From Mesorhizobium sp. M1E.F.Ca.ET.045.02.1.1 (GTDB lineage: Bacteria; Pseudomonadota; Alphaproteobacteria; Rhizobiales; Rhizobiaceae), in the NCBI RefSeq assembly GCF_003952485.1, contig NZ_CP034447.1:1178001-1242000 (forward strand): a stretch of DNA of 64,000 bases, given 5' to 3'. This document shows positions 736 through 21,807 of the stretch, one piece after another. Position numbers and translations under genes: made by a program. Each line of letters starts with the position of its first letter. The stretch's first letter is position 1. The notes beneath the pieces were generated by a model that was not told where the DNA came from, searched no databases, and saw only the letters and a list, made by a program, of their open reading frames with translations.

Positions 736-2322
736 TTATAAAGCCGGGCTGTCGTCAAGCGTCGCTACGGTCTTCAGCGCGCCGTCGAGCATGTCGCCCT
801 TCTCGTCCTTCAGCGCCGCCTCGCGCAGGCGGCGGAGCCAGTCGGCGGCGTCTTCTCTGCCCTTGAGCATGGGAAGCGCCGAGAGCACACGGTCGAATTT
901 CGACTGGGCGCGGGCGTGGGTGTCGCTGTAGCCCTTGATCAACCGGCGGCAGTTCAGGATCTCTGTGCCGAGCGCATAATTTTCGCGCGCATGGGCGAGC
1001 GCCAGTTCGTACCAGCGCTCCAGATGCTCCATCTCGACCTTGTGGCGCAGCAGACGGCGGCGCCAGCGGCGCAGGCCGCCGATGAACCAGAGCGTGGCGA
1101 AGCCGGCAAAACTGTCGGTGCGGATATGGCGGCCGCGATTGATGCGGCGGTCGAGGAAGGCAGCGAGCTTCGGCCGGTTCTCGATGTAGCTGCCGAGCCC
1201 CACCGGCAGCGTGCCGCAGAACTCCTCGATGCGCGGATGGAAATATTCGGTGACCTGGAGGACCGAGCCTTCCTTGACGCCGATCTCCTTGCGCACGCGC
1301 CTGTCACGGGTCGAGCGCGTCTTGAGGTCGGCGACGCGGATCATGTCGTCATAGCACATGGCGTTGGCGAGATGCTTGGCGGCGGCAATCGACAGCGCGT
1401 AGCCGCGTTCCGCATTGTCCAGCGGAACCGCCTTGTCCAGCCGGTCGAGATATTCGCCGCCGTAGGCGATGTCCTGGAAGTCGACGACCTTCTTCAGGCC
1501 GCGTTCGGCCATGTCGCGCACCGGCTCTGGCAATGCCGCGACGCGGGCAGCAAGCTCCTGCCAGCCAATCAGCAGGGTTTCCGGGCCGCTGACCTTCGCG
1601 ACTGGGCGAGTCTCGGGAGCAGCGGGTTTCGCCGCAGCCGTACCCCCGGTCGGCGCCGCAGCGATGCCGCGCGCGCGATCGTAAGCAGCGCCAAAGGCGG
1701 CGAGGCTTGCCTTGACGCCGCGGCCGCCGGCGCCGATCGCCTGCTCGTAGCTTTCGCGCGCGAACGGCAGCGCGTCGGAACCGGCCAGCGCGCCGAGCAG
1801 GCTGGCCGAGATCATCGTGCCGTTCTCGACGGCGATCTTTTCCATGTCGAAGGCGATGAAGCGTTTTGAGGCGGCCTCGGCCGTCGCGTGCACCTTCTCC
1901 GATGAGGCGCGGCCGTCGCCCGGCTCGATCTTTTCCGAGACGGCGGCGATGCGGTGCGAGGAGGCGATCAGCGTCGTGCGCTCGGGCGTGACGAAGCCGC
2001 GGATGATGGCGCGGCCGGCTTCCATCAGCTCGGCGGCGATCAAAATGTCGACGTCGCCCTGGGAGGGCGACAGCGCGAAGACCGGCAGCCGGCCGGTGTC
2101 GCGGGCCATTTCGATGTAATAGATCGTCGCCCCCGTGCGCTGGGCGACGCCCGCCACAGACGTCGACTGGGCGATGTAGCCGCTGCGCTCGGCGACATCG
2201 GTGATCCAGTCGGCGAGCACGCCGCCGCCCTGGCCGCCGACCGCGAGCACGGCGAGTTTTATCACCCGCTCGTCATCAGTAGCGCCCACCTTCGGGCGCA
2301 AGGGTGAGGCCTGTTCAAGCAT
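736..2322 (-). CDS. iorB: indolepyruvate oxidoreductase subunit beta-family protein
   Basis: A 528-residue partner of IorA. Residues about 22-210 are the gamma-type domain of 2-oxoacid:acceptor oxidoreductases (glycine-rich AVGGQGGGVLADWI near residue 30, then AQSTSVAGVAQRTGATIYYIE). An Ala/Pro-rich linker follows near 215-240, then a C-terminal domain (DUF6537-like, about 245-510) found in long IorB proteins of alpha- and betaproteobacteria. With IorA it would oxidatively decarboxylate an aryl 2-oxoacid to an acyl-CoA, passing electrons to ferredoxin. The start overlaps the iorA stop by 8 bases, so the two are translationally coupled. In this operon I suspect the substrate is isatinate (2-aminophenylglyoxylate) rather than indolepyruvate; that is inference from context. 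Confidence 0.9.
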   Translation of the reverse strand: MLEQASPLRPKVGATDDERVIKLAVLAVGGQGGGVLADWITDVAERSGYIAQSTSVAGVAQRTGATIYYIEMARDTGRLPVFALSPSQGDVDILIAAELMEAGRAIIRGFVTPERTTLIASSHRIAAVSEKIEPGDGRASSEKVHATAEAASKRFIAFDMEKIAVENGTMISASLLGALAGSDALPFARESYEQAIGAGGRGVKASLAAFGAAYDRARGIAAAPTGGTAAAKPAAPETRPVAKVSGPETLLIGWQELAARVAALPEPVRDMAERGLKKVVDFQDIAYGGEYLDRLDKAVPLDNAERGYALSIAAAKHLANAMCYDDMIRVADLKTRSTRDRRVRKEIGVKEGSVLQVTEYFHPRIEEFCGTLPVGLGSYIENRPKLAAFLDRRINRGRHIRTDSFAGFATLWFIGGLRRWRRRLLRHKVEMEHLERWYELALAHARENYALGTEILNCRRLIKGYSDTHARAQSKFDRVLSALPMLKGREDAADWLRRLREAALKDEKGDMLDGALKTVATLDDSPAL

Positions 2323-4468
2323 CGGCGAACATCAAACGGCGGCTCTCGCGGCGGCGCTGCAAAAGGCCGATCGCAGCGCGGCGCGCGCTTTCCAGGAAAC
2401 GGTCCCAGCGGCCGGGATTGTGGACGACGTCGGCGCGATAGAAGGACGGGCAGAGCACGGCGGCATCCGCCACCTCGCCGCAATTGCCGCAGCCGACGCA
2501 GTTCTGGTCGATGCTGGCGACCGGATCGTCGCGCAGCGGATCGTCGAGCGACTTCACCGACAGCGACGGGCAGCCGGACAGCCGCATGCAGGCGTGGTCG
2601 CCGGTGCAGATGTCCTCGTCGACGCCGAATTTCGGCTTGACGATGCGCTCGCCCGCCTTGATCGCTTTGTCGACCAGCGGCTTCTCGCGGCGCTGGCGGT
2701 TGAGCATGCATTCCGACGAGGCGACGATGACCTTCGGCCCCTTCTCCTCTGTGGTCAGCGCCTCGCGCAACGCGGCTTGCATCTTGCCGACATCATAGGT
2801 GCGGTCGATGTGGCGCAGCCATTTGACGCCCATGCCCTTCACCGCCTCGGTGATCGGATGCTTGGTCGATTTCGTCCGGTTCGAGGCGCGCGAGGACAGG
2901 ATGTCCTGGCCGCCGGTAGCGGCCGAATAGAAATTGTCGACGATGACGATGACACCGTCATTCTTGTTGAAGACGGCGTTGCCGATCGAGGACGTGAGGC
3001 CGTTGTGCCAGAAGCCGCCGTCGCCGACGAAGGAGATCGAACGGCGCTTGGCCTCCGGCGAGTTGAAGGCCGATGCCGAGGCCGGCCCAAGCCCGTAGCC
3101 CATGGTGGTGGCGCCGAGCTCGAAGGGCGGCATGATCGAGAACAGGTGGCAGCCGATGTCGGAAGCTATGTGGTGCTTGCCGAGTTCCTGCTCGACCAGC
3201 TTGGTCGCGGCGAAGATCGGCCGCTCGGGGCAACCGACGCAGAAGCCTGGCGGGCGGCCAGGAACGACATTGACGAGATCGGCGGTATCGACACCCTCGC
3301 CCAGCTTGTTCGGCGCGCGAACCTCGCCGGGCAGCAGATGCGGCGCATAGGCGCGGAGGAAGGAGCCAATGCCGTCGAGCATCACCTGGCCGGTATATTC
3401 GCCGGCCATCGGCAGATGCTCCTTGCCGACCAGCTTCGTGCCGCGCCCGGCCTTGTGCAGCATGGCGGCAAAGGCCTGCTCGATATAGTTGGGCTGGCCT
3501 TCCTCCACGACCAGCACCGCCTGCTTGCCTTCGCAGAAGGCGAGGAACTCGTCATCGACCAGCGGATAGACGGCGTTGAGCACATAGAGCGGCACGTCGG
3601 TGTCGCCATAAGTGTCGGCGAGGCCGAGCCGCTGCAGCGCGCGGACGACGGAATTATACATGCCGCCCTGCATGACGATGCCGACGGAGCCGTGGTCCGA
3701 ACCGAATATCTCGTTGATCTTGCGCTCGCGGATGAAGTTCACGGCCGCCGGCCAGCGCTTGGCGACCTTCTCCTTCTCGTGCAGGAAGGAAGCGGGCGGC
3801 AGCACGATGCGGCCGGTGTCGCGGCGCGGCGCTGCAAGCGCATCGGCGACCGACATTGGCGGGCGCTTGTTGTCCTTGGCGATGAAATGGCCATGGACAT
3901 GGCAGCAGCGGATGCGCACCTGCAGCATGACCGGCGTGTTCGACGCCTCCGACAGCTCGAAGCCGTCCTCGACCGCCTTGACGATGCAGGGCAGGTTCGG
4001 GCGCGGATCGAGCAGCCAGACCTGGCTCTTCATGGCAAAGGCATGGCTGCGCTCCTGCATGATGGAGGAGCCCTCGCCATAGTCCTCGCCGACGATGATC
4101 AGCGCGCCACCGGTGACGCCGCCCGAGGCGAGGTTTGCCAGCGCGTCGGAGGCGACGTTCGTGCCGACCGTCGACTTGAATGTGGCCGCGCCCCGGATCG
4201 GGTAATGCACGGAAGCGGCAAGCATGGCGGTGGCGGTCGCCTCCGAGGCGCTCGCCTCGAAATGCACGCCGAGCTCGCCCAGAATGTCCTGCGCGTCGGC
4301 GAGCACGTCCATCAGATGGCTGATCGGCGCGCCCTGGTAACCGCCGACATAGCCGACACCGCATTGCAGCAGCGCCTTGGTGATGGCGAGGATGCCTTCG
4401 CCCGCGAATTCCTCGCCGGCCCCTAACCTCAGCCTCTCGACTTCCTTGGCAAAAGACCGTTCGGCCAT
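2315..4468 (-). CDS. iorA: indolepyruvate ferredoxin oxidoreductase, alpha subunit (TPP and Fe-S)
   Basis: A 717-residue TPP-dependent 2-oxoacid:ferredoxin oxidoreductase catalytic subunit. The N-terminal pyrimidine-binding domain has GYQGAPISHLMDVL at about residue 40. The TPP/Mg domain is marked by GCPERPIFAA, DIGCHLFS and GDGGFWHNGLTSSIGNA followed by VDNF. A C-terminal ferredoxin-like region (about 620-690) carries the cysteine sets C-x4-C-x5-C and CVGCGNC-x8-C, suitable for two Fe-S clusters. The length fits the family. It lies 49 bases downstream of a MarR gene and overlaps iorB. The classical reaction is indolepyruvate + CoA to indoleacetyl-CoA + CO2; the neighbourhood suggests another aryl 2-oxoacid, possibly isatinate, giving anthraniloyl-CoA. 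Confidence 0.93.
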   Translation of the reverse strand: MAERSFAKEVERLRLGAGEEFAGEGILAITKALLQCGVGYVGGYQGAPISHLMDVLADAQDILGELGVHFEASASEATATAMLAASVHYPIRGAATFKSTVGTNVASDALANLASGGVTGGALIIVGEDYGEGSSIMQERSHAFAMKSQVWLLDPRPNLPCIVKAVEDGFELSEASNTPVMLQVRIRCCHVHGHFIAKDNKRPPMSVADALAAPRRDTGRIVLPPASFLHEKEKVAKRWPAAVNFIRERKINEIFGSDHGSVGIVMQGGMYNSVVRALQRLGLADTYGDTDVPLYVLNAVYPLVDDEFLAFCEGKQAVLVVEEGQPNYIEQAFAAMLHKAGRGTKLVGKEHLPMAGEYTGQVMLDGIGSFLRAYAPHLLPGEVRAPNKLGEGVDTADLVNVVPGRPPGFCVGCPERPIFAATKLVEQELGKHHIASDIGCHLFSIMPPFELGATTMGYGLGPASASAFNSPEAKRRSISFVGDGGFWHNGLTSSIGNAVFNKNDGVIVIVDNFYSAATGGQDILSSRASNRTKSTKHPITEAVKGMGVKWLRHIDRTYDVGKMQAALREALTTEEKGPKVIVASSECMLNRQRREKPLVDKAIKAGERIVKPKFGVDEDICTGDHACMRLSGCPSLSVKSLDDPLRDDPVASIDQNCVGCGNCGEVADAAVLCPSFYRADVVHNPGRWDRFLESARRAAIGLLQRRRESRRLMFADA

Positions 4469-4517: not shown

Positions 4518-5000
4518 TCAAATGTCGTGCTTGCGGATATTCTTCAGCATCTTCTGGAGAATCGCGATCAGCGCGGCATATTCGGCATCGTCGACACCGT
4601 CGAACATCGCCTCGAAAGCGTCGTGCATGGCCGGCCATGCGCGGGTGAACAAAGCGCGCCCATCATCGGTCAGGAACACATGGCGGAAGCGGCTGTCGGT
4701 GACGCCCTGCTCGCGCCGGACGAGGCCCTGGCCTTCCAGCGTGTCGAGCGTGCGGCTCAAGGTCGATTGCTCGATCACCGTATAGACAGACAGATCGTTG
4801 ACGGTGACGCCGTCGGTGACTGAGAGCACAGCCAGCGTGCGCACCTGCGGAATGGTCAGGCCCTGCTTGCGGAAATCCTCGCGCAGCGTGGCGTTGTAGC
4901 GGCCCATGATGCGGTTCATCAGATAGGGCGCGAACTGCTGCAGGCCGATCTGGCCGAGGGTTGAGATGCGCTGGCGCGTTTCGGGAAGCTTCCCGTCCAT
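4518..5000 (-). CDS. MarR-family transcriptional regulator
   Basis: A 160-residue MarR protein. The winged helix covers about residues 45-115 (QGLTIPQVRTLAVLSVTDG, then a recognition helix region with VIEQSTLSRTLDTLEGQGLVRRE and the wing DSRFRHVFLTDDGRALF), flanked by N- and C-terminal dimerisation helices. I chose the ATG at 5000 because it overlaps the stop of the upstream FAD oxidoreductase as ATGA, a translational-coupling arrangement; the reading frame stays open further upstream but loses MarR similarity there. Local catabolic MarR repressors usually bind an aryl-CoA or free aromatic ligand. It is a candidate for binding the TTTMAGCNTRAAA palindromes found in this window; a second MarR is encoded at 18714-19178. 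Confidence 0.92.
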   Translation of the reverse strand: MDGKLPETRQRISTLGQIGLQQFAPYLMNRIMGRYNATLREDFRKQGLTIPQVRTLAVLSVTDGVTVNDLSVYTVIEQSTLSRTLDTLEGQGLVRREQGVTDSRFRHVFLTDDGRALFTRAWPAMHDAFEAMFDGVDDAEYAALIAILQKMLKNIRKHDI

Positions 5001-6571
5001 CACAGCCTCCCCGCCAGCAGGAAGCCGGAGCCGCCGCCAAGCCCCGCGCCCGGATGGGTTGAGGCGCCGATATGGTAGAGACCCTTGATGCCGGTCTCGT
5101 GGTTGCGACTTGCCTTGAACGGCCGCCACAGGAAGGACTGGTCGATTGTCGACGAACCGCCATAGGGGTCGCCGCCGACAAGGTTGATGTTCATCGCTTC
5201 GAGATCGGCCGGCGAATAGGCGCGGCGCGCAATGACCGTCTCCCTGAAGTCGTCGATGTGGTGGGCGAGGATCGCCTCGACCCGATCGGCAAAGGCTTCG
5301 CGCAATGCGTCGCTCCATTGTCCGTCAGCCGGTGTCTCCAACTGGCCCGCCGCATCGCCTTTGATAACGCGCGGCGCTTCGGGCAGTTGCAGCCACAGGA
5401 TCGCCTTGCCCTCCGGACAGCGCGATGCGTCTAGCGCGTGCGGCTGGCCGACGCAGATGGTCGGCACCTCCGGCAGCAGGCCGCGCACCGCCTCGTTGCA
5501 GGCCTTCGAGACACCGTCGAGCCCCGGCGTCAGATGCAGCAGCGCCACCTTGTCGAGACCCTCGCCCCGCCAGGCCGGCGGCTTGTTCAGGGCATAGTGG
5601 ATCTGGAAGTTGCCTTTGCCATAGCGATAGTCGTTCACTGCCTTGGCGGCGGCCTCCGGCGCATCCTTGCCGAGCAGGCGGCCGTAAAGCTGCGTCGGCG
5701 TGACCGAACAGATGACGCTCTCCAATGCCGTCAATGTCTCGCCGGAGGCGAGCTGCACGCCGATGGCGCGGCCATCCTTCCGAGCGATCGAGGCGACATC
5801 GGCGTTGACGCGGATGTCGCCGCCACGCTCCTTGATCAGCGCCTCGAAGGCGGCAAGCAGGTTCTTGGCGCCGCCTTTGACGATCGGCGCGCCGGCAGCC
5901 TCCAGCGCGAAGGCGATGACCTTGGCGATCTGGCCGGAGAAGGCGTCTTCCGGCCCGAGCCCGGCATGCAGCACCCAGGGCGCCCAGAGCGCGCGGACGG
6001 TGTCCGACATGTAGGCGGTCTCCAGCCAGCCACGCGCCGGCACCAGCGCCTCGCCCATGAAAGCGGCGAGGCCGCGCGGGCCGCGCCGCCAGGCCTCGCC
6101 GGCCAAGAGCTTCGTCGTCGGATAGGACCAGAGCGCACCGCCGAGCAGGCCGAACAGCAGGCCGGCATTGCGCTCGATCCCGCCGACATCGCCACCGTGA
6201 CGGTCACCGTCGCCGGAAGCGATCCGGTTCAGCGCCGCGATGTTGGCGGCGCGATCGGTGGTGAGCACGGCATGGCTGCCGTCCGGCCGAAGCACGCCGG
6301 TGGGCGTTGCGGTGTGGCAGAACTCCAGCCCATGCCGCGCGAGGTCCTTGCCAAGTGCCGCAAAGGCCGGCGAGGTGATGAACAGCACGAAGGTCGTCGC
6401 CATCACATCATGGACGAAGCCCGGCGCCGTGATCTCCTCGGTGCGCATGCAGCCGCCGATGCGGTCGTTGCGCTCGAGCACGAGCACCTTGGCGCTCTTG
6501 GCGCCAAGCATGGCCGCACAGACCAGGGCGTTGATGCCACTGCCGACGATGATGTGATCGGCGGCGGTCAT
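5000..6571 (-). CDS. NAD(P)/FAD-dependent oxidoreductase, phytoene-dehydrogenase-like
   Basis: A 523-residue flavoprotein of the phytoene desaturase-like superfamily (COG1233). An N-terminal Rossmann fold begins HIIVGSGINALVCAAML and continues with a LERNDRIGGCMRTEE stretch, the usual ADP-binding Gly-rich loop and ribose-binding acid. Near the C-terminus a PGAGLGGGSGFLLAG segment matches the FAD-binding end of this family. The ATG at 6571 is preferred because it sits just before the Rossmann strand; the open frame upstream runs into a palindromic repeat. The stop overlaps the MarR start. A paralogue is encoded divergently at 7778. The substrate is unknown; in this island dehydrogenation of an indolic intermediate such as dioxindole is plausible but unproven. 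Confidence 0.88.
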   Translation of the reverse strand: MTAADHIIVGSGINALVCAAMLGAKSAKVLVLERNDRIGGCMRTEEITAPGFVHDVMATTFVLFITSPAFAALGKDLARHGLEFCHTATPTGVLRPDGSHAVLTTDRAANIAALNRIASGDGDRHGGDVGGIERNAGLLFGLLGGALWSYPTTKLLAGEAWRRGPRGLAAFMGEALVPARGWLETAYMSDTVRALWAPWVLHAGLGPEDAFSGQIAKVIAFALEAAGAPIVKGGAKNLLAAFEALIKERGGDIRVNADVASIARKDGRAIGVQLASGETLTALESVICSVTPTQLYGRLLGKDAPEAAAKAVNDYRYGKGNFQIHYALNKPPAWRGEGLDKVALLHLTPGLDGVSKACNEAVRGLLPEVPTICVGQPHALDASRCPEGKAILWLQLPEAPRVIKGDAAGQLETPADGQWSDALREAFADRVEAILAHHIDDFRETVIARRAYSPADLEAMNINLVGGDPYGGSSTIDQSFLWRPFKASRNHETGIKGLYHIGASTHPGAGLGGGSGFLLAGRL

Positions 6572-6868: not shown

Positions 6869-7660
6869 CTATTTGCCCGGCACCAGCGCCAGGGCGCGGA
6901 TCGGGCTGCCGGTGCCGTGCTCGATCTTGAGTGGAGCGGCGATCAGGATCGCGCCCTTCGGCGGCAACTGGTCGAGATTGCAGAGGCTGGCGAGGCCGTA
7001 GCGGTTGGCCTTGTGCATCAGCGTATGCGCCGGGAATGGCGGCTCCATGCCGCCGGCCTTGCCGGCATCGGTGCCGATCGTCTCTGAGCCCCAGCCCTTG
7101 ATATCTTTGCTGATCAGGAACTGGATGGCTTCCGCCGTCGGTCCGGGCGTATGCGGGCCGGTCTCATTGGCGTTGAGGAACTCGGCCTCAGAGCCGTTGC
7201 GCTTGTACCAGTCGGTTCGCATCACCACCCATTCGCCGGGGTTGATGGCGCCATGCTTGGCTTCCCAGGCCTTGATGTGATCGACGGTGAGCAGGAAATC
7301 GTGATCGGCGGCGGCTTCCTTCGAGCAGTCGATAACATTGACCGGGCCGACGAAATTCTGTGCCGGAATGGTGTCGGTGGCGCCGTCCGGATAGTCCTTG
7401 CCGGTGATCCAGTGCTGCGGCGCGTCGAAATGCGTGCCCGAATGCTCGCCGAGCTTGAGCCAGTTCCAGGCCCACCACGGACCGTTCTTGTCATATTTGG
7501 AGATGGAATGGATCTCGACCTTCGGCGTGTCGACGGCGAGTTCCGGCGGCAGCTTGATCAGCGGTGTGTCCGGCCCGAGAGGCGCCGACAGGTCGACCAC
7601 CTTGATGGCGCCCGAGAGCAGCTGGCCGGCGACCTCGCCGAGGAGTTTTTGCGTATCCAT
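6869..7660 (-). CDS. cyclase-family metal hydrolase, isatin hydrolase-like
   Basis: A 263-residue protein of the cyclase/kynurenine-formamidase (PF04199) family. The metal-binding signature H-x-G-T-H-x-D-x-P-x-H is complete at residues 73-83. Length and layout (VVDLSAPLGPDTP start, WWAWNWLKLGEHSGTHFDAP, C-terminal LCNLDQLPPKGAILIAAPLK) resemble isatin hydrolases of Labrenzia and Bradyrhizobium more than the shorter KynB enzymes. His212 and Ser225 fall at positions I remember as important in the Labrenzia enzyme; that numbering is from memory. Isatin hydrolase opens isatin to isatinate with Mn2+. It is the first gene of the leftward operon, with GAGGG placed 9 bases before the ATG. The exact substrate is inferred; the family call is secure. 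Confidence 0.87.
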   Translation of the reverse strand: MDTQKLLGEVAGQLLSGAIKVVDLSAPLGPDTPLIKLPPELAVDTPKVEIHSISKYDKNGPWWAWNWLKLGEHSGTHFDAPQHWITGKDYPDGATDTIPAQNFVGPVNVIDCSKEAAADHDFLLTVDHIKAWEAKHGAINPGEWVVMRTDWYKRNGSEAEFLNANETGPHTPGPTAEAIQFLISKDIKGWGSETIGTDAGKAGGMEPPFPAHTLMHKANRYGLASLCNLDQLPPKGAILIAAPLKIEHGTGSPIRALALVPGK

Positions 7661-7777: not shown

Positions 7778-9352
7778 GTGAGCGAGTTCGACGCCATCTT
7801 TGTCGGGGCGGGCCACAACAGTCTGGCATGCGCCGCGCATCTGGCGCTCAAAGGCTGGAAAACAGCGGTTTTCGAACGCAGCCAGACGATCGGCGGTGCC
7901 GTCCGGACCGCTGAATATACGCTTCCCGGCTTCCGGCACGATTTCGGCGCGATGAATCTGAGCCTGTTCGCCGGCTCTGCCTTCCACCGGAAATATGCAA
8001 ATGAATTGAAAAGCCACGGGCTGGAATTCGCACCCGTGGCCGACTGTTTCGCCAGCGCCTTCCCGGACGGCAAATGGTTCGGCGTCAGCAACGATCTCGA
8101 AAAGACCGCATCGCGGCTGACCGCCTTCTCCGCCGCCGACACCGCCGCATGGCGTCGGCTGGTCGGCGTCTTTCCGGGCGAGGCCGAACATCTGTTCCGT
8201 CTGTTGGGATCGCCGATGAGCGCGCGGGCGCTGGCCGGCACGGCCTGGAATCTCTGGCGCAAGAAAGGTCTTGCCGGCGCGCTCGACACCGGCCGGCTGC
8301 TGCTCTCCTCGCCGCGCGCGTGGCTGGAGGAAAATTTCGAGACGCCGCATGTCAGGACGACGCTCGCCGCCTGGGGCATGCATCTCGATTTCGCGCCCGA
8401 CATCGCAGGCGGCGCCGTATTCCCCTACCTGGAATCGATGGCCAACCAGAGCTTCGGCATGGTGCTGGGCAAGGGCGGCGCCGACACCATCATCCGCGCG
8501 CTTGCCGGCATGGTCAAAGCGGCCGGAGGCAAGATCGTGGCGGGGGCGGAAGTGGCGGAGATCACCGTCGCCGGCGGCCGGGCGACCGGCGTGCGGCTCG
8601 CCTCCGGCGATTTCCATGTCGCGGGCAAGGCCATCATCGCCGGCGTCGCGCCGAAAGCGCTTCCCGGCAAGCTCCTGCCCAATGGCTCCGGCGACGCAAG
8701 TTTCGATGCGACGATGAAGCAATTCCGCCATGCGCCGGGCACGATGATGATCCATCTGGCGCTGGACGACCTGCCGGACTGGAGCGCCGGAGCCGAGCTT
8801 CGCCGGTTCGCCTATGTGCATCTGGCGCCTTCGCTCGACGCCATGTCGCGCACCTATCAGCAGGCGATCGCCGGCATGTTGCCCGACCAGCCTGTGCTCG
8901 TCGTCGGCCAGCCGACGGCCGTCGACCCCTCACGTGCACCGGAAGGCAAGCATGTACTCTGGGTGCAGGTGCGCATGCTGCCGGCGGAGATCCTTGGCGA
9001 CGCGGCCGGCAAGATCGCGCCCGGTTCTTGGGATGCGGTCAAGGAGGCCTATGCCGAGCGCGTGCTCGACATCATCGAGAGCTACGCGCCGGGTTTGCGC
9101 AGCAAGATTCTTGGCCGCGCGATCTTCTCGCCGCTCGACCTCGAGCGCGAGAACCCGAACCTCGTCGGCGGCGACCAGATTTGCGGCAGCCACCATCTGG
9201 CGCAGAATTTTCTCTTCCGCCCGGCGCGCTCATTCGCGCGCTGGAACACGCCCATCGCCAATCTGCATCTCACCGGAGCCGCTACATGGCCCGGCGCCGG
9301 CACCGGTGCGGGATCGGGCTTCATGCTCGCGCAACAGCTCGGAGGAAACTAG
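7778..9352 (+). CDS. NAD(P)/FAD-dependent oxidoreductase, phytoene-dehydrogenase-like (second copy)
   Basis: About 524 residues, same family as the protein at 5000-6571. The N-terminal Rossmann motif is FDAIFVGAGHNSLACAAHLALKG, followed by ERSQTIGGAVRTAEYTLPGFRHDFGA; the C-terminal PGAGTGAGSGFMLAQQ is the family's FAD-contact end. I give the GTG at 7778 as start because the Rossmann strand begins a few residues later; a TTG at 7766 in the same frame is the alternative, and it stands only five bases after the operator dyad. It heads a rightward operon with a peptide-type ABC importer. Two divergent paralogues under one operator suggest successive or paired oxidations of the same compound class. 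Substrate unknown. Confidence 0.87.
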   Translation: MSEFDAIFVGAGHNSLACAAHLALKGWKTAVFERSQTIGGAVRTAEYTLPGFRHDFGAMNLSLFAGSAFHRKYANELKSHGLEFAPVADCFASAFPDGKWFGVSNDLEKTASRLTAFSAADTAAWRRLVGVFPGEAEHLFRLLGSPMSARALAGTAWNLWRKKGLAGALDTGRLLLSSPRAWLEENFETPHVRTTLAAWGMHLDFAPDIAGGAVFPYLESMANQSFGMVLGKGGADTIIRALAGMVKAAGGKIVAGAEVAEITVAGGRATGVRLASGDFHVAGKAIIAGVAPKALPGKLLPNGSGDASFDATMKQFRHAPGTMMIHLALDDLPDWSAGAELRRFAYVHLAPSLDAMSRTYQQAIAGMLPDQPVLVVGQPTAVDPSRAPEGKHVLWVQVRMLPAEILGDAAGKIAPGSWDAVKEAYAERVLDIIESYAPGLRSKILGRAIFSPLDLERENPNLVGGDQICGSHHLAQNFLFRPARSFARWNTPIANLHLTGAATWPGAGTGAGSGFMLAQQLGGN

Positions 9353-10989: not shown

Positions 10990-11010
10990 TCGTCGGCCTT
11001 GGATTGCCGC

Positions 11011-11035
11011 GCGCGCCGTCCGGAAGGCGGCGTGC
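11011..11035 (+). terminator. intercistronic hairpin between binding-protein and permease genes
   Basis: GCGCGCCG and CGGCGTGC form an 8-pair stem (one G-U pair in RNA) with a 9-base loop. No U-run follows, so it is more likely an mRNA-stabilising or attenuating stem than a full terminator. It matches similar hairpins after the binding-protein genes at 26063 and 31925. Confidence 0.5.
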
Positions 11036-11059
11036 ATTTCCATCCGGGCGTATTGGCAG

Positions 11060-13795: not shown

Positions 13796-14618
13796 GCCGC
13801 TGTTTTCCGTGCGCGGACTGAAGGTGGCGCTGCCCGATATGACGCGCAAGCCGCTGATCGGCCGGGCGCCGCTGGTCGAGATCCTCAAGGGGCTGGACTT
13901 CGACCTGCCGAAGGGATCGGTCACCGGCATCGTCGGCGAATCCGGCTCGGGCAAGTCGACGCTCGGCCGAGCGCTGGTGCGCCTGATCGAGCCGAGCGCC
14001 GGTACGATCAGCTTCGAGGGGCATGACATCAGCCATCTTTCGGAGGCCGAGCTGAGGCCGCTGCGCCGCGACCTGCAGATGATCTTCCAGGATCCGATGT
14101 CCTCGCTCAATCCGCGGCACACGATCTTCAACATCATCGCAGCACCCTTGAGGCAAAACGGGCTTGGCGACAGGCTGAAGGAGCGCGTCGCGGACGCCCT
14201 GCAGCGCGTTGGCCTGCCGCAGAACTTTGCCAGCCGATACCGCCACGAACTGTCCGGCGGGCAGCGGCAGCGCGTCGGCATCGCGCGGGCGCTGGCGCTG
14301 TCGCCGAAATTCGTGCTGGCCGACGAGATCGTCTCCGGGCTCGATGTCTCGACCCAGGCGCAGATCCTGACCTTGCTGGAGAAGCTGGCGGCCGAGATGG
14401 GGCTGACGGTCGCCTTCATCAGCCATGACCTGTCGGTGATCCGGCGGCTCTGCCAGCAAGTCATCGTCATGCGCGAAGGCAGGATCGTGGAATCGAGCGC
14501 CACCGATGCGCTCTTCGACAATCCGAAGGAGGCGTACACGCGCGACCTGCTCGCCGCCATTCCGTTGCCCGAGATCGACGCTGACTGGCTGCAGCCACCT
14601 GCCAAGGCTCCCGCATGA
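13788..14618 (+). CDS. ABC transporter ATP-binding protein, DppF-type
   Basis: A 276-residue ATPase with Walker [10 protein letters not shown], signature ELSGGQRQRVGIARAL, Walker B VLADEIVSGLDVSTQAQ and switch SHDLSVI. MIFQDPMSSLNPRHT is the characteristic Q-loop region of DppF/OppF. Walker B reads DEIVSGLD where most relatives have DEPVSALD. It is the last importer gene; an exported VOC protein follows after about 80 bases. Confidence 0.92.
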   Translation: MAEPLFSVRGLKVALPDMTRKPLIGRAPLVEILKGLDFDLPKGSVTGIVGESGSGKSTLGRALVRLIEPSAGTISFEGHDISHLSEAELRPLRRDLQMIFQDPMSSLNPRHTIFNIIAAPLRQNGLGDRLKERVADALQRVGLPQNFASRYRHELSGGQRQRVGIARALALSPKFVLADEIVSGLDVSTQAQILTLLEKLAAEMGLTVAFISHDLSVIRRLCQQVIVMREGRIVESSATDALFDNPKEAYTRDLLAAIPLPEIDADWLQPPAKAPA

Positions 14619-14700
14619 GAGAAGCTTAACCTTTCCGCACGCCGAACAGCGGGCCTCGGATGTGCGCGGTGAAAGAGCCAGCCCGCCAATGGAGGGTGAC

Positions 14701-15300
14701 GTGAAATACGCAATCCAGGCCGCGATGTTCGCAGCCACTTTGTTCGGCGCAATGGGAGCGGCGTCGGCCGACTCGATCCCCGGCATGCGCGGTCACGACC
14801 ATACCGGCATCACCGTGCCCGACATGAAGCAGGCCGTCGATTTCTTCACCAATGTCGTAGGCTGCAAGAAGGCGATGTCCTTCGGCCCGTTCGCCGACGA
14901 CAAGGGCACCTTCATGCAGGACCTGCTCGGCGTCGACCCGAAGGCGGTGATCGAGGAGATCACCATGGTCCGCTGCGGCACGGGATCGAACATCGAGCTG
15001 TTCAAATACACCGCGCCCGACCAGAAGGACCTGCAGCCGAAGAACAGCGACATCGGCGGCTTCCACATCGCCTTCTATGTCGATGACGTCGGCGCGGCGA
15101 AAACCTATCTTGACGCCAAGGGCGTGAAGACCAGACTCGGACCGCTGCCGGTCAAGGAAGGGCCGGCAGCCGGCGAGACCATCCTCTATTTCCAGGCGCC
15201 CTGGGGGCTGCAGCTCGAAGCGATCAGCTATCCCCAAGGCATGGCCTACGAGAAGGGCGCCGAGACGGTGCTGTGGAGCCCCAAGGATCCGCCCAAGTGA
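14701..15300 (+). CDS. VOC-family protein with signal peptide
   Basis: A 199-residue vicinal-oxygen-chelate protein with an N-terminal signal (KYAIQAAMFAATLFGAMGAASA, cleavage after ASA), so probably periplasmic. Two beta-alpha-beta-beta-beta modules are visible: HDHTGITVPDMKQAVDFFT and GGFHIAFYVDDVGAAKTYL. I choose the GTG at 14701 because GGAGG ends 5 bases before it and translation there starts exactly at the signal peptide; the ATG at 14689 would put the Shine-Dalgarno sequence inside the coding region. VOC proteins include dioxygenases, glyoxalases and binding proteins. Last gene of the importer operon, so it may handle the imported compound or its reactive derivative; the reaction is unknown. 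Confidence 0.85.
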   Translation: MKYAIQAAMFAATLFGAMGAASADSIPGMRGHDHTGITVPDMKQAVDFFTNVVGCKKAMSFGPFADDKGTFMQDLLGVDPKAVIEEITMVRCGTGSNIELFKYTAPDQKDLQPKNSDIGGFHIAFYVDDVGAAKTYLDAKGVKTRLGPLPVKEGPAAGETILYFQAPWGLQLEAISYPQGMAYEKGAETVLWSPKDPPK

Positions 15301-15498: not shown

Positions 15499-17793
15499 AT
15501 GAAGGTTGCGGTTCTCGGCGGCGGACCGGCCGGCCTCTACTTTGCCATCTCATTGAAGCTGCGCGACGCCGCGCACGAGGTGACTGTCTATGAGCGCAAC
15601 CGCCCGGACGACACCTTCGGCTGGGGCGTGGTGCTGTCGGCCGAAACGCTGGACAATCTGACCAGGAACGATCCCGTCAGCGCCGTCTGGATCAAGAAGC
15701 ATTTCGCCTATTGGGACGACATTGCCGTCGTCCATGACGGCGTGCGCACCGTTTCCACCGGCCACGGATTCTGCGGTATCGGCCGCAAGCGGCTCTTGAT
15801 CCTTTTGCAGCGGCGGGCGCGCGAGCTCGGCATCAAGCTGATGTTCGAGACGGAGATTTCAGATCCGAAGCCATTCATGGAAACGCATGACCTGGTGGTC
15901 GCGGCGGATGGGTTGAACTCTAAGTCACGCGCCATTTTCGTCGATGTCTTCAAGCCCGACATCGACACCCGCAAGTGCAAGTTCGTGTGGCTCGGCACCA
16001 CGCAGAAATTCGACGACGCCTTCACCTTCATCTTCGAGAAGACGGAGCATGGCTGGGTCTGGGCGCATGCCTACCAGTTCGACAGCGAGACCGCGACCTT
16101 CATCGTCGAATGCAGCGAGCAGACTTGGGCTGCTTTCGGCTTTGGCCAAATGACGCAGCAGGAATCGATCGCGGCCTGCGAACGCATCTTCGAAAAGCAT
16201 CTCGGCGGCCATCCGCTGATGACCAATGCCAATCACATCCGCGGTTCGGCCTGGATCAATTTCCCGCGCGTGCTGTGCGAGCGCTGGTCCTACAAGAACC
16301 TGGCGCTGATGGGCGACGCCGCGGCAAGTGCGCATTTCTCGATCGGCTCCGGCACCAAGCTGGCGCTGGAAAGCGCCGTCGCGCTCGCCGACTATGTCGA
16401 GTCCGAGCCGGACCTCGAAGCGGCCTTCCGCAAATACGAGGATGCGCGGCGCACGGAGGTGCTGAAGCTGCAGTCGGCGGCCCGCAATTCGCTGGAATGG
16501 TTCGAGGAAGTCGAACGGTATCTCGGCCTCGATCCAGTTCAGTTCAACTATTCGCTGCTCACCCGCTCGCAGCGCATCAGCCACGAGAATCTGAGGCTGC
16601 GCGACGCCGAATGGCTGGCGGGAGCGGAGGAATGGTTCCAGCGCAAGGCCGGCGCCGGCGGCAACATGCTGCGCCGGGCGCCGATGTTCGCGCCGTTCAA
16701 GCTGCGCGACATGGCGCTCAACAACCGCATCGTCGTCTCGCCGATGGCGCAGTACAAGGCGGTCGACGGCTGCCCGACCGACTGGCATTTTGCTCATTAT
16801 GCCGAGCGCGCCAAGGGCGGCGCCGGCCTCATCTATATCGAAATGACCTGCGTCAGCCCCGAGGGGCGCATCACCCCGGGCTGTACGGGCTTCTACAAGC
16901 CCGAACACGAAGTCGCCTGGAAGCGCCTGGTCGATTTCGTGCATGCCGAGACGGAAGCGAAAATCTGCGCCCAGATCGGCCACTCCGGCGCCAAGGGCTC
17001 GACCCGCCTAGGCTGGGAAGGAACCGACGAGCCGCTCATTTCCGGCAACTGGCCGGTGATGGCGCCGTCGGCGGTGCCTTGGTCGCCGCAGAATCAGATG
17101 CCGAAGGCGATGGACCGCGCCGACATGGACATGGTGCGAGACCAGTTCGTCGCCTCGGCCGAGATGGCAAAGCGCTGCGGTTTCGACATGCTAGAGATCC
17201 ACGCCGCGCATGGCTATCTGCTCTCCGCCTTCATCACGCCGCTGACCAACCACCGCACCGACGAGTATGGCGGCCCGCTCGAGAACCGCATGCGCTATCC
17301 GCTGGAGATCTTCCACGCGGTGCGCGCCGTGTGGCCGGCGGAAAAGCCGATCTCGATGCGCATCTCGGCCAATGATTGGGTGGGCATCGAAGGCGTCACG
17401 CCGGCCGATGCGGTCGAGATCGCCAGACTGCTGCATCAAGCCGGCATCGACCTCTGCGACGTCTCGGCCGGCCAGACGACGATTGCCGCCAAGCCGGTCT
17501 ACGGCCGCATGTTCCAGACGCCGTTTTCGGACCGCATCCGCAACGAGGTCGGCATGGCGACCATGGCGGTCGGCAACATCTACGAGCCTGACCACGCCAA
17601 CTCGATCCTGATGGCCGGGCGCGCTGACCTTGTGGCGCTGGCCAGGCCGCATCTTACCGACCCCTACTGGACGCTGCATGCGGCGGTCACCCTCGGCGAC
17701 CGCGGCGTCAAATGGCCGGATCCCTATCTGCGCGGACGCGACCAGATCTACCGCCTGGCCGAGCGCGAAGCGGCGGCAGGGCTCAAGGTATGA
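15499..17793 (+). CDS. bifunctional flavin monooxygenase / Old Yellow Enzyme reductase (anthraniloyl-CoA or salicylyl-CoA type)
   Basis: A 764-residue fusion. Residues 1-380 are a class A flavin monooxygenase: [16 protein letters not shown] at the N-terminus, then [24 protein letters not shown] binding FAD. Residues about 395-755 are an Old Yellow Enzyme domain: [20 protein letters not shown], the [15 protein letters not shown] substrate-site motif and [14 protein letters not shown]. The same architecture is known from 2-aminobenzoyl-CoA monooxygenase/reductase of Azoarcus evansii, which hydroxylates and then reduces the ring of anthraniloyl-CoA; databases call rhizobial versions salicylyl-CoA 5-hydroxylase/oxidoreductase. 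GAGGAG stands 9 bases before the ATG. It heads the operon with SDR, crotonase, acyl-CoA dehydrogenase and RidA, which fits processing of its CoA-bound product. Architecture certain; substrate inferred. Confidence 0.92.
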
Positions 17794-17943: not shown

Positions 17944-17961
17944 CGCCTCGGGGATTGAGCT

Positions 17962-18720
17962 ATGATCGCCGGTAGACACGCCCTCGTCACCGGCGGTGGT
18001 TCCGGCGTCGGTCGTGCGATCGCGCTGGCATTAGCCGGCGTCGGCATCAACGTAACCATATGCGGGCGGCGCGAGGCGGCGCTTGCCGAGGTCGCGAAGG
18101 AGAACGCTTGCATCTTTGGTCTCGCCGCCGATGTCACCGATGAGGCAGACATGGCGGCTCTTTACGAGAAGGCGGAAGCGGCGCGCGGACCGTTCGATAT
18201 CGTCGTCGCCAATGCCGGCATGGCGGGCAGCGCGCCGGCGCACAAGACCTCGCTGGCCGACTGGCGGCGCACGCTCGACGTCAACCTGACCGGCGCTTTC
18301 CTGACGGTGAAGCCGGCACTGGCGGGCATGATCGCGCGGAAGGCGGGTCGGATCATATTCGTAGCCTCGACGGCCGGCCTGAAAGGCTACGCCTATGTCG
18401 CTCCTTACGTCGCCGCCAAGCACGGCGTGGTCGGGCTGATGCGGGCTTTAGCCACCGAGACCGCGAAGTCCGGCGTGACGGTGAATGCCGTCTGTCCGGG
18501 TTTCGTCGAAACCGACATGCTGGAGGAGTCCGTTCAGCGCATCGTGGGGAAGACCGGCCGCTCCGCCGACGAGGCGCGGGCGAGCCTCGCCGCGACGAAC
18601 CCGCAAGGGCGCTTCATCCAGCCCGAAGAGGTCGCCGCGGCGGTGCTCTGGCTGTGCAGCGACGCCGCCCGATCGATCACCGGGCAGGCGATCTCGATTT
18701 CCGGAGGCGAGACATGGTAG
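17962..18720 (+). CDS. short-chain dehydrogenase/reductase, 3-hydroxyacyl-CoA dehydrogenase type
   Basis: A 252-residue classical SDR. The cofactor loop VTGGGSGVGRAIA lies at the N-terminus, with NAG in VVANAGMAG; the catalytic Ser is in IIFVASTAG and the YxxxK pair in PYVAAKHG. GRR after the second strand suggests NADP preference, which is weak evidence. In anthraniloyl-CoA or beta-oxidation-like pathways an SDR oxidises or reduces the ring or chain hydroxy-CoA intermediate. It overlaps the following MarR gene by 7 bases, so expression is coupled. Confidence 0.9.
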   Translation: MIAGRHALVTGGGSGVGRAIALALAGVGINVTICGRREAALAEVAKENACIFGLAADVTDEADMAALYEKAEAARGPFDIVVANAGMAGSAPAHKTSLADWRRTLDVNLTGAFLTVKPALAGMIARKAGRIIFVASTAGLKGYAYVAPYVAAKHGVVGLMRALATETAKSGVTVNAVCPGFVETDMLEESVQRIVGKTGRSADEARASLAATNPQGRFIQPEEVAAAVLWLCSDAARSITGQAISISGGETW

Positions 18721-19178
18721 CAGGACCGACATCCACCGGGCCGGGCAAGGACAGGCTGCGCCTGTGGATACGCTTGCTGCGCGCCTCGCGCACGATCGAG
18801 GCCGAGCTGCGCGAACGGCTGAAGAAGGAATTCGACACCACGCTGCCCCGCTTCGATGTGATGGCAGCGCTCTATCGCGTGCCCGAAGGCATGCTGATGA
18901 GCGACCTGTCGCGCTTCCTGCTCGTGTCGAACGGCAATGTCACCGGCATCGTCGACCGGCTGGTTTCGGAAGGGCTCGTCGCCCGCGCGCGCCGCAACGG
19001 CGACCGCCGCACATCGATGGTGCGGCTGACCGAGGAAGGTACGAAGTCCTTCGCGGAGATTGCCGCCGCGCATGAGAACTGGGTCGGCGAGCTGCTCGGC
19101 AATGTCAGCGAGGACGAGGCCCGCCGCCTGACCGGCATGCTGAAATCGTTCCGCAGCAATTGGGAGGGACGCGAATGA
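18714..19178 (+). CDS. MarR-family transcriptional regulator (second)
   Basis: A 154-residue MarR protein. The HTH and wing are seen in [46 protein letters not shown] and [17 protein letters not shown]. The ATG at 18714 is preceded by GGAGG at a 7-base spacing, which decides against the longer upstream frame. It is embedded between SDR and crotonase genes with overlaps on both sides, an arrangement typical of autoregulated aromatic-CoA operons whose repressor is released by an acyl-CoA thioester. It is a candidate partner of the TTTMAGCNTRAAA palindromes. Confidence 0.92.
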
Positions 19179-19987
19179 GCAAGATGGCTGGCCTGAAACC
19201 CAAGCATTTCCTCTGGCAGGTGGAAGGCAGGATCGCCAGGGTCCGGCTCGACCGTCCCGAACGCAAGAACCCGCTGACCTTCGACAGCTATGCCGAGTTG
19301 CGCGACACTTTTCGCGACCTCGTCTATGCCGACGATGTCGACGCCGTCGTGTTCCTGCCCAATGGCGGCAATTTCTGCTCGGGCGGCGATGTCCACGACA
19401 TCATCGGGCCGCTGGTCAAGATGGATATGAAGGCGCTGCTCGCCTTCACGCGCATGACCGGCGACTTCGTCAAGGCGATGCTTAACTGCGGTAAGCCGAT
19501 CATCTCTGCCGTCGACGGCGTGGCGGTCGGCGCCGGCGCCATCATCGCCATGGCCTCCGACATCCGCATCGCCACGCCGGAGGCAAAGACCGCCTTCCTG
19601 TTCACCCGCGTCGGCCTTGCCGGCTGCGATATGGGCGCCTGCGCGATCCTGCCGCGCATCGTCGGCCAGGGCCGAGCGGCGGAGCTGCTTTATACCGGCC
19701 GCACGATGAGCGCCGCCGAAGGCGAGCGCTGGGGTTTCTACAATCGCCTCGTCGAGCCCGCTGCGCTCGAGGCCGACGCGCTCGACATGGCGGCGCGCAT
19801 CGTCTCCGGCCCGACCTTCGCGCATGGCATCACCAAGACACAACTCAACCAGGAATGGTCGATGGGCCTCGACCAGGCGATCGAGGCGGAAGCGCAGGCG
19901 CAGGCGATCTGCATGCAGACCGGCGATTTCGAGCGCGCCTATAAGGCCTTCGTGGCGAAGGAAAAGCCGGTGTTCGAGGGGAATTAG
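19175..19987 (+). CDS. enoyl-CoA hydratase/isomerase (crotonase) family protein with atypical active site
   Basis: A 270-residue crotonase-fold protein: [16 protein letters not shown] start, oxyanion-hole loop [13 protein letters not shown] and [19 protein letters not shown]. Both glutamates of classical enoyl-CoA hydratases are missing: the GGCELA position reads GAGAIIA and the QPE position reads FTR. Instead an Asp occurs in [13 protein letters not shown], near where dienoyl-CoA isomerases have a catalytic Asp. It may therefore be an isomerase, a ring-opening hydrolase or another CoA enzyme rather than a hydratase. Start ATG at 19175 follows GGGAGGG and overlaps the MarR stop as ATGA. Called enoyl-CoA hydratase by family only. 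Confidence 0.88.
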
Positions 19988-20218: not shown

Positions 20219-21367
20219 ATGCCTGACCGCTCCTTCCTCTCATGGCCGTTCTTCGAAGACCACCATCGCGCGCTGGCAGAAAAGCTCGACGCCTGGTGCG
20301 CGAAGAACCTTCCCGTAGATCACCACGATGTCGACGCGGCCTGCCGCGCGCTGGTGGCGATGCTTGGCCGCGACGGCTGGCTGAAGCCGACAGCGCTCGA
20401 CTCCGCCAACCCCGGGCCGCTCGATGTGCGCACGCTCTGCATCACCCGCGAAACACTCGCACGCCATGACGGGCTGGCCGACTTCGCCTTCGCCATGCAG
20501 GGTCTCGGCACCGGCGCGATCTCGCTTTTCGGCACACCGGACCAGCAGCGCTGGCTTGCGAAGACGCGGGCCGGCCAGGCAATCTCGGCCTTTGCTCTCT
20601 CGGAACCACGTTCGGGTTCGGACGTCGCCAATATGGAGATGACGGCGATCCGCGACGGTGACTTCTACGTGCTTTCGGGCGAGAAGACCTGGATCTCCAA
20701 TGGCGGCATCGCCGACCTCTATGTCGTCTTTGCGCGGACCGGCGAGGCGCCCGGCGCCAAAGGCATTTCCGCCTTCATCGTGCCTGCGGATACGAAGGGC
20801 CTCGGCATTGCCGAGCGGCTGGAGGTGATCGCCCCTCACCCGCTGGCGCGGCTCTCCTTCGATAATGTGCGCGTTCCCGTTTCTGCGCTGATTGGAAAGC
20901 CGGGCGAGGGTTTTCGCATCGCCATGTCGGTGCTCGACGTCTTCCGTTCGACGGTGGGCGCCGCTGCGCTCGGCTTCGCGCGGCGCGCGCTCGACGAGAG
21001 CGTCAAAAGGGCGGCCGAGCGCAAGCTGTTCGGCGCGCCGATGGCCGAACTGCAAATGGTGCAGGGCCACATCGCCGAGATGGCGCTCGATGTCGACGCC
21101 GCCGCCCTGCTGATCTATCGCGCCGCCTGGACCAAGGACATGGGGGCCGCGCGGGTGACGCGCGAAGCTGCGATGGCGAAGCTCTTCGCCACCGACAGGG
21201 CGCAGGAGGTGATCGACAAGGCGGTGCAACTGCATGGCGGCGATGGCGTGCGCAAGGGCCACATCGTCGAGAGCCTCTATCGCGAGATCCGGGCGCTGCG
21301 CATCTACGAAGGCGCCTCCGACGTGCAGAAGGTGGTGATCGCCAGGCAGGTCATGGGAGCGGCGTGA
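20219..21367 (+). CDS. acyl-CoA dehydrogenase
   Basis: A 382-residue flavoprotein of the acyl-CoA dehydrogenase family. FAD-contact segments are [18 protein letters not shown] and [18 protein letters not shown]; the catalytic base is the Glu of [11 protein letters not shown] near the C-terminus, as in short-chain dehydrogenases. The start ATG at 20219 follows GGAGG with an 8-base gap. It would introduce a double bond alpha-beta to the CoA ester of the dearomatised or ring-opened intermediate, passing electrons to ETF. Its place in the operon with the bifunctional monooxygenase mirrors aerobic 2-aminobenzoyl-CoA gene clusters. Confidence 0.92.
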
Positions 21368-21411: not shown

Positions 21412-21807
21412 GTGCACACTATCCTGCAGCCGGAAGGCTGGGCCAAACCGATCGGCTACGCCAATGGCGTGGCCGCGCGTGGCCGGCTTGTCTTTATCGG
21501 CGGCCAGGTCGGCTGGAACGCCGAATGCCGGTTCGAGACCGACGACTTCGTCGGTCAGGTGCGCCAGACGCTCGCCAATGTCGTTGCCATTCTCGCCGAA
21601 GCCGGCGGCGAGCCGCAGCACATCACCTCGATGACCTGGTATTTCACCGACAAGGCCGAGTACCTCGCCAACCTCAAGGGGATCGGCGAAGCCTACCGCG
21701 CAATCATCGGCCGGCACTTCCCGGCGATGGCCGCCATGCAGGTGGTGGCGCTGGTCGAAGACCGCGCCAAGGTGGAGATACAGGCTACGGCGGTCATTCC
21801 GGACTGA
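21412..21807 (+). CDS. RidA-family protein (enamine/imine deaminase type)
   Basis: A 131-residue RidA/YjgF protein (QPEGWAKPIGYANGVAARG, then VFIGGQVGWN, FVGQVRQTLANVVAILAEAGG and AAMQVVALVEDRAKVEIQATAV). The GTG at 21412 has GGGGAGG 6 bases upstream and begins at the usual family N-terminus. RidA proteins hydrolyse enamines and imines, releasing ammonia. As the last gene of an operon whose main enzyme would yield a 2-amino-enone CoA ester, it could remove that nitrogen; this is inference. An Arg that binds the substrate carboxylate in classical RidA is not obvious at the usual place, so it belongs to a Rid subgroup rather than RidA proper. Confidence 0.85.
   Translation: MHTILQPEGWAKPIGYANGVAARGRLVFIGGQVGWNAECRFETDDFVGQVRQTLANVVAILAEAGGEPQHITSMTWYFTDKAEYLANLKGIGEAYRAIIGRHFPAMAAMQVVALVEDRAKVEIQATAVIPD

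Follow-up and report, generated by a model that had tools for sequence, protein, structure and literature searches.

A putative isatin/indole catabolic island of Mesorhizobium that may enter the aerobic aryl-CoA pathway without a CoA ligase

Positions 736 to 21,807 of a 64,000-nucleotide stretch of the Mesorhizobium sp. M1E.F.Ca.ET.045.02.1.1 genome (the window; contig NZ_CP034447.1, G000:C1:1178001-1242000; the genome is a single contig of 7.35 Mb) probably constitute a catabolic island for isatin/indole that feeds into the aerobic aryl-CoA pathway with no ligase step, the two-subunit oxidoreductase IorAB making anthraniloyl-CoA from isatinate. In the proposed route, an indolic precursor would be imported by a Dpp-type importer and oxidized to isatin, a compound formed when indole and plant hormone are degraded; for this oxidation two flavoenzymes, FAD1 and FAD2, are candidates; isatin hydrolase (IH), whose identity is well supported, would open isatin to isatinate. 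IorAB, with thiamine diphosphate (ThDP) and Fe-S clusters, would then oxidatively decarboxylate isatinate in the presence of CoA to anthraniloyl-CoA and CO2, passing electrons to a ferredoxin-type carrier. Finally, a 2-aminobenzoyl-CoA monooxygenase/reductase-type fusion enzyme (FUS) would hydroxylate and reduce anthraniloyl-CoA, and a short-chain dehydrogenase (SDR), a crotonase, an acyl-CoA dehydrogenase and a RidA-family protein would process the non-aromatic product. If such a ligase-free model holds, IH, IorAB and FUS should be linked, some genomes should carry IorAB and FUS in one gene row, and the ligase should be dispensable. Each of these expectations was borne out, which supports, at the level of gene content and order, what a preliminary description of this DNA had proposed, namely that IorAB could feed FUS from isatinate.

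The gene at 6869-7660 (minus strand) clearly encodes an isatin hydrolase as judged from its sequence, which matches isatin hydrolase B (PDB 4J0N) with 430 bits across 260 of 263 residues and 5NNB with 316 bits. Aligned residues are retained in the EHSGTHFDAPQHW, GTDAG, PFPAH and NLDQLP stretches; in the accessible text of PMC6117287, the Mn ligands and catalytic residues (LaIHA numbering) are His69, His73, Asp75, His79, Asp193, His207 and Gln219. Compared with the solved isatin hydrolases A and B of Labrenzia aggregata and Ralstonia solanacearum (4J0N, 5NNA, 5NNB, 5NMP), the match is full-length with the metal and catalytic residues conserved, and at the sequence level no difference argues against activity. 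A kynurenine formamidase identity was rejected, as IH has only 35 bits to TIGR03035 versus 430 bits to the solved isatin hydrolase.

IorA (2315-4468, minus strand), the proposed catalyst of the conversion of isatinate and CoA to anthraniloyl-CoA and CO2, is an IadA-like ThDP subunit (PF02775) with C-terminal Fe-S cysteines, and the IadB-like IorB (736-2322, minus strand, with a possible alternative downstream start at 2301) combines a POR gamma domain (PF01558) with DUF6537 (PF20169), scoring 712 bits on NF006179 (cut-off 348). Across 32 IorA sequences the GDGG motif and Cys 621, 627, 633, 657, 660, 663 and 673 are invariant; the Fer4 model gives 21.5 bits, under its 25.5-bit cut-off. With the IorA of a Variovorax plasmid it shares 68.6% identity over 96%, and the nearest 14 named IorB homologs, 83-91% identical, belong to 13 Mesorhizobium and one Hyphomicrobiales metagenome-assembled genome. 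Phenylglyoxylate and indolepyruvate oxidoreductases convert an aryl 2-oxoacid and CoA to an acyl-CoA and CO2, and isatinate is 2-aminophenylglyoxylate, the ortho-amino form of phenylglyoxylate. The chemistry proposed here for IorAB is the same as that of phenylglyoxylate:acceptor oxidoreductase and indolepyruvate ferredoxin oxidoreductase; unlike the classical indolepyruvate oxidoreductase (IOR), however, IorB carries DUF6537 and IorA reaches 273 bits on the IOR-alpha equivalog TIGR03336, whose cut-off is 651. The AlphaFold model of IorA is poor (mean pLDDT 68, pTM 0.59) and its PDB matches are ThDP enzymes at an rmsd of ~20, which indicate only a ThDP enzyme and nothing finer; no informative PDB match came from searching with the IorA sequence.

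FUS (15499-17793, plus strand) consists of an N-terminal FAD monooxygenase and an Old Yellow Enzyme reductase (PF00724 at 396-728), with 1262 bits on NF006101 (cut-off 1078); its frame is open throughout and 95% identical to the nearest relative. It is accompanied on the same strand by the SDR, a frequent neighbor of FUS (17962-18720), the regulator MarR2 (18774-19178), the crotonase (19175-19987; NF006107 480 bits, cut-off 330), the acyl-CoA dehydrogenase (20219-21367) and, at the end of the operon, a RidA-family enamine/imine deaminase (21412-21807). The abm anthranilate pathway of Azoarcus evansii reportedly proceeds through a fusion monooxygenase/reductase, an SDR, a crotonase, an acyl-CoA dehydrogenase and RidA, and its step order is adopted for the route proposed here. 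The island has the same set, which is also present in ligase-bearing FUS operons; unlike the abm pathway, its operon has no 2-aminobenzoate-CoA ligase, none was found in the genome, and entry via IorAB is proposed instead. The aerobic CoA pathway for 2-aminobenzoate in Azoarcus is mentioned in the accessible part of PMC6221969. Because NF006101 bears the database name 'bifunctional salicylyl-CoA 5-hydroxylase/oxidoreductase', FUS might instead serve salicyloyl-CoA, its neighborhood with IH and IorAB being an accident of island building. That explanation appears extremely improbable, since IH genomes of the order all have FUS (33/33) and a ligase of the FUS-operon family in Mesorhizobium relatives adjoins tryptophan 2,3-dioxygenase and kynureninase, an anthranilate supply; on this context it is proposed that the window FUS would act on anthraniloyl-CoA.

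Of 249 genomes of the order Rhizobiales, 33 have IH, 39 have window-type IorB (9 of the 48 genomes with matches at E <= 1e-60, at 37-43% identity, were set aside before counting) and 80 have FUS (70 score over the NF006101 cut-off and the other 10 reach 962-1043 bits; contig ends truncate a few of the 80). All 33 IH genomes, from 15 genera, have both IorB and FUS (Fisher p of 2e-35 for IH-IorB and 2e-19 for IH-FUS; like the other p values for co-occurrence, these do not allow for relatedness). Six genomes have IorB but no IH, and two have IorB but no FUS, a partial FUS being present in one of the two (G047). IH and IorB are no more than 10 kb apart in 23 of the 33 genomes and no more than 35 kb in 26, where about 0.13 of 33 would be expected within 10 kb in 5 Mb genomes, so the proximity is not due to chance; the coordinates of IH, IorB and FUS for distance counts were entered manually. 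In a phylum-wide sample of 398 genomes, IH was present in 25, and the 15 of these that were additional to the first sample contain IorB in 13 and FUS in 14, versus 1/40 and 3/40 for IH-less controls, both FUS counts resting on a looser threshold. The controls were picked by handle number (8 from the class, 32 from the rest of the phylum and none from the window family); some are incomplete (57-69%), and as a group they lie at a greater average distance than the 15 IH genomes do. Similarly, 80 named IorB loci with flanks of ~10 kb per side, some from the same strains as the sampled genomes, include IH in 57, FAD2 in 43, FAD1 in 42, the importer binding protein in 43, FUS in 14 and a ligase in 5; those with IH come from Mesorhizobium, Nitratireductor, Jiella, Aurantimonas, Hoeflea, Roseibium, Pseudooceanicola and Paracoccus. 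A cyclase-family (IH-type) gene is present in eight of ten annotated plasmid stretches at IorA, and a Sulfitobacter indolifex plasmid has a minimal IH-MarR-IorA-IorB cluster.

No aryl-CoA ligase is encoded in the island, as the preliminary description had noted for the surroundings of the fusion enzyme, and the only AMP-binding ligase of the window (34043-36007) was rejected as a candidate, being a long-chain FadD. The genome has 13 AMP-binding ligases, but searching it with TIGR02262 gave no 2-aminobenzoate-CoA ligase at E <= 1e-88, with 5 of the 14 initial candidates scored, and the best of eight scanned reaches 278 bits on this model, versus ~346-415 bits for the listed ligases of FUS operons. 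The usual FUS operon includes such a benzoate-CoA-ligase-family gene (f7; TIGR02262 403 bits for its representative). A search of other genomes for the gene set with and without a ligase, suggested in that same description, showed that, of 16 genomes in which FUS is no more than 36 kb from IorB, 3 have a ligase gene of this family within 16 kb of FUS, versus 51 of 64 others (p 1.0e-5); the ligase listing reached down to ~346 bits, the FUS-operon ligase of G020 was added from the neighborhood view, hence 51/64, and some of the 13 other ligase-free genomes are short contigs. On a FUS tree of 84 rows, 79 of them labeled (29 of the 84 manually), the ligase is absent from 24 of 32 IorAB-linked rows versus 8 of 47 others (p 4e-7), or from 18 of 24 versus 8 of 47 when named rows, six of which were judged ligase-free on 10 kb flanks, are left out (p 3e-6). 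At E <= 1e-88, no ligase was found in six Rhizobiales genomes with IorB and FUS (the window's own, G105, G208, G183, G085 and G202) or, beyond the order, in G567, G593 and G514, which also have both; a seventh ligase-free Rhizobiales genome with FUS is 75% complete and has no IorB.

The kynurenine locus presents what looks like a natural deletion. In relatives, the ligase adjoins tryptophan 2,3-dioxygenase (TIGR03036 430 bits) and kynureninase (TIGR01814 391 bits), as scanned in G136 and seen by sequence start in G069 and G494, and therefore probably serves tryptophan-derived anthranilate there. The corresponding locus of the window genome (G000:C1:5373445-5377497; L274 and L275 versus L244) has kept the kynureninase (88% identical) and is missing both the dioxygenase and the ligase: ~140 bases past the kynureninase it continues into a gene located beyond the ligase in the relative, and the only remaining dioxygenase-like match is a weak 252-residue frame. 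G105 is also without the ligase. With the ligase lost and FUS intact, FUS would have to be fed another way, for which IorAB is the candidate.

Several gene rows join IorAB directly to FUS. A same-strand row IorA-IorB-thioesterase-FUS is found in G447, G514 and a Caballeronia SBC1 plasmid, the latter with IH a few genes beyond the row; in G447, ~1.5 kb separates the matched parts of IorA and IorB, and another contig holds a second FUS in a row with the ligase, which would fit a division of labor in which one copy is devoted to anthranilate and the other to IorAB. G593, with no ligase found in its genome, has IorA-IorB-IH adjoining the FUS operon. Azospirillum thermophilum has on one strand IorA, IorB, genes of the IadC, IadD, IadE, IadF and IadJ types (names assigned here from annotated products), FUS, SDR, crotonase, acyl-CoA dehydrogenase, thioesterase and RidA. 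The AMP-binding gene of this row shares 77% identity with the IadF-type family and 30% with that of the ligase; an acyl-CoA ligase further upstream is also outside the ligase family (30%); thus the genes for auxin attack and for the aryl-CoA pathway stand in one row without a ligase of that family.

The recurrent 4HBT thioesterase beside IorAB or FUS in several loci raises another alternative, in which IorAB makes anthraniloyl-CoA only transiently, the thioesterase hydrolyzes it, and free anthranilate, or else a hydroxylated acid, is the actual intermediate that must be ligated anew to supply FUS. Anthranilate has been reported for iad strains in the accessible text of PMC9613470, and a thioesterase beside IorAB would explain the free anthranilate observed. 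We nevertheless regard this alternative as very unlikely for the island, given that the window gave no match to either 4HBT query and that no usual-family ligase, hence no obvious re-ligation enzyme, was found in the genome; moreover, where the row includes a gentisate-dioxygenase-like cupin, the thioesterase may follow FUS in the pathway. Such a cupin, like gentisate or 5-aminosalicylate 1,2-dioxygenase, and a gene of the fumarylacetoacetate hydrolase (FAH) family are close to IorAB in eight cases, namely Caballeronia, G447, G514, Ruegeria pomeroyi, Sulfitobacter THAF37 and the genomes G112, G171 and G194 with their iad-type loci, and a nitrilase-family gene is present in six of these eight loci (L267 20733-23945; also L224, L227, L053, L264 and L273); the one cupin scanned is under both dioxygenase cut-offs. 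This suggests a second fate of anthraniloyl-CoA: hydroxylation, hydrolysis of the thioester and direct ring cleavage.

A number of observations weigh against the ligase-free route through IorAB. On the FUS tree, ligase presence and absence need 13 changes. When relatedness is taken into account, the pair test leans in the same direction as the counts but is not significant: nine independent pairs average 3.6 for, 0.3 against and 5.1 undecided (median p 0.25). IorAB and a ligase both lie near FUS in G248, G071, G231, G421, G549, L167 and L197, a ligase stands beside IorAB in Jiella, Aurantimonas and G609 and ~19 kb from FUS in the Alloyangia pacifica island, and the Mesorhizobium relatives G069, G136, G209 and G229 have the ligase away from FUS but elsewhere in the genome. 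FUS is in only three of the ten plasmid stretches at IorA, and Ruegeria pomeroyi and Sulfitobacter THAF37 have IorAB-thioesterase with no FUS in the stretch. IH occurs with FUS and a ligase but no IorB in G545, and alone, without IorB, FUS or ligase, in G459; IorAB of the window subfamily is also found where IH is missing, in 6 of the 39 Rhizobiales genomes and in several loci with a TRAP permease. IorA is so far under the IOR-alpha cut-off that its substrate is not readable from a named family. Last, the region iadC-K2 yields anthranilate in V. paradoxus (accessible text of PMC12633357); it lacks iadAB, as is concluded from the gene numbers in PMC9613470, likewise available in part, where iadA is gene 72 and iadC gene 70.

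Some of these observations favor a rival in which IorAB takes another 2-oxoacid, such as indolepyruvate or phenylglyoxylate, and isatinate is decarboxylated to free anthranilate by a different enzyme or non-enzymatically, to be activated for FUS by another ligase of the genome. Anthranilate from iadC-K2, the six IH-less genomes and G545 all agree with it, as do the 13 AMP-binding ligases, any of which might be promiscuous. It fits less well with the presence of window-type IorB in every Rhizobiales IH genome and with the score of the best of eight own ligases, well below those of listed FUS-operon ligases and with none at E <= 1e-88; the minimal Sulfitobacter indolifex cluster and the IorA-IorB-thioesterase-FUS rows leave little else to explain. 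On balance this rival is unlikely, though less so than the other two alternatives, and anthraniloyl-CoA formation from isatinate by IorAB is the preferred reading.

The preliminary description had presented the route as one not known to be described. Part of it is known: IorAB and an isatin-hydrolase gene already occur together in the iad loci of auxin degraders (PMC9613470, PMC12633357). In the accessible text of these two sources, iad loci with genes iadA-N occur in Variovorax, Achromobacter and Bradyrhizobium, isatin and isatinic acid were detected as intermediates, anthranilate is the end product, and no reaction is assigned to IadAB; that of PMC9613470 further has the loci running via isatin to anthranilic acid and iorB/iadB and iadA as exclusive iad markers. 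According to the part of PMC12633357 available, whose text does not name iadA or iadB, C8H7NO3 (the formula of isatinate) and C7H7NO strongly accumulate in V. paradoxus overexpressing iadC-K2, and only in such strains; build-up of the isatinate formula from a region without iadAB speaks for the proposed role of IorAB. The island has the markers, IorA/IorB corresponding to iadA/iadB, as well as the isatin-hydrolase-type gene; IadI, annotated as kynurenine formamidase and considered by the authors a broad late-pathway amidase in the accessible text of both papers, is here equated with IH. As regards the reaction itself, none was found for IorAB in the accessible parts of PMC8383072, PMC10374108, PMC11630574 and PMC6221969, and the one paper retrieved on anthraniloyl-CoA together with isatin concerns, to judge from its title, fungal alkaloids. 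Most subscription papers lay outside this coverage, and priority is therefore not proven.

A link to isatin breakdown and possibly to auxin had also been put forward; the linkage of IH, IorAB and FUS supports the first, and the second probably does not hold for this genome. Unlike iad loci, the island has no IadDE, IadF, IadG, IadH or IadJ beside IH and contains FAD1 and FAD2, the Dpp-type importer and the FUS operon; library scans of 736-21807 gave no iad Rieske oxygenase IadDE with IadC, F, G, H and J. The two Rieske alpha matches elsewhere in the genome have 117 and 96 bits on PF00848, versus 43 bits for an iad-type one, and on these scores only, auxin entry by an iad oxygenase was ruled out, so auxin itself is probably not a substrate here. 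In iad-type auxin degraders, the same IorAB probably performs the isatinate step after the auxin oxygenase steps, and many auxin- and indole-degrading bacteria may use this ligase-free route.

More generally, here it is proposed, with somewhat better than even confidence, that DUF6537-type IorAB is a CoA-acylating isatinate oxidoreductase through which the breakdown of auxin, of indole and of isatin connects directly with the aerobic aryl-CoA pathway or, where the thioesterase and cupin are present, with a hydroxylated ring-cleavage branch. If so, one reaction would give the isatinate step of iad loci its enzyme and the markers IadA/IadB their reaction, and would reveal by which path plant auxin and indole supply central metabolism with carbon and energy, with ATP saved as CoA activation is drawn from the decarboxylation. 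In that case, the free anthranilate given as the end product of iad loci would arise by leakage or hydrolysis and not be a true intermediate; the anthranilate measured in auxin degraders is suggested to be partly a side product. The reaction would further provide a marker by which isatin-linked catabolism could be recognized among soil and marine Alphaproteobacteria.

The supply of isatin may involve FAD1 (5000-6571, minus strand), the proposed oxidase upstream of isatin, and its paralog FAD2 (7778-9352, plus strand). By profile and domain matches, both are CrtI/CrtO-like flavoenzymes, yet far under the cut-offs of those models, and 38% identical to each other. A StyA-like (styrene/indole) monooxygenase gene lies near IH and CrtI-like flavoenzymes in four loci, from Alloyangia, Gemmobacter, G447 and G514 (L266 1196-2425, L192 13997-15157, L226 4568-5701 and L228 8022-9173), pointing to indole as one isatin source; these are possible complete gene sets from indole to anthraniloyl-CoA. 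The one StyA-like gene scanned has 214 bits, under the StyA cut-off of 550, and none is present in the window island.

All genes named for the island in the preliminary description (IH, IorAB, both FAD enzymes, FUS, SDR, crotonase, acyl-CoA dehydrogenase, RidA, two MarR and an importer) were recovered by profile, domain and open-frame evidence, in coding register and at the positions assigned to them. They form two divergent blocks with a junction at 7660/7778, the minus-strand block with IH, FAD1, MarR1, IorA and IorB and the plus-strand block with FAD2, the importer, a VOC protein, FUS, SDR, MarR2, crotonase, acyl-CoA dehydrogenase and RidA; genes overlap or are closely spaced at IorB/IorA, MarR1/FAD1, within the importer and at MarR2/crotonase. 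The two halves are probably regulated by MarR1 (4518-5003, minus strand) and by MarR2, assigned to the FUS operon by a profile match and FUS neighborhoods. MarR1 is closer to 3CJN (152 bits) and 7KYM (94 bits), its best PDB matches, than to the auxin regulator 7KFO (30 bits); 7KYM is one of the structures from the auxin MarR paper. The whole Dpp/Nik-type ABC importer (9484-14618, plus strand) comprises, by profile matches, a substrate-binding protein (9484-10989), the permeases OppB-like (11060-12067) and OppC-like (12060-12908) and the ATPases OppD-like (12905-13795) and OppF-like (13788-14618).

The VOC/glyoxalase-superfamily protein (14689-15300, plus strand; profile and domain matches) recurs between the importer and FUS, or beside IorA, in many such loci. 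After the island, the region 21809-33504 contains a luciferase-like monooxygenase, an HpaI-like aldolase and a cysteine-desulfurase-like protein, and two OppD/OppF-like ATPases within it suggest a second Dpp-type importer.

IorAB is also found in other settings. The idea that it is tied to IH alone was rejected, as the same IorAB is also present in TRAP-permease loci and contexts are mixed across the IorA tree. At L076 11101-12417, IorAB of this subfamily occurs with a TRAP permease (dctM 293 bits) and no isatin hydrolase nearby, and L170, L172, L185, L187, L194 and L223 are similar TRAP-type loci by gene size; the IorAB substrate in these loci may be an imported aryl 2-oxoacid. In plasmid 3 of Variovorax PBS-H4 (L271 18001-24301), a conjugative plasmid whose host strain comes from soil contaminated with linuron, IorA is flanked on both sides by IS1071 copies, and no IorB is annotated following it.

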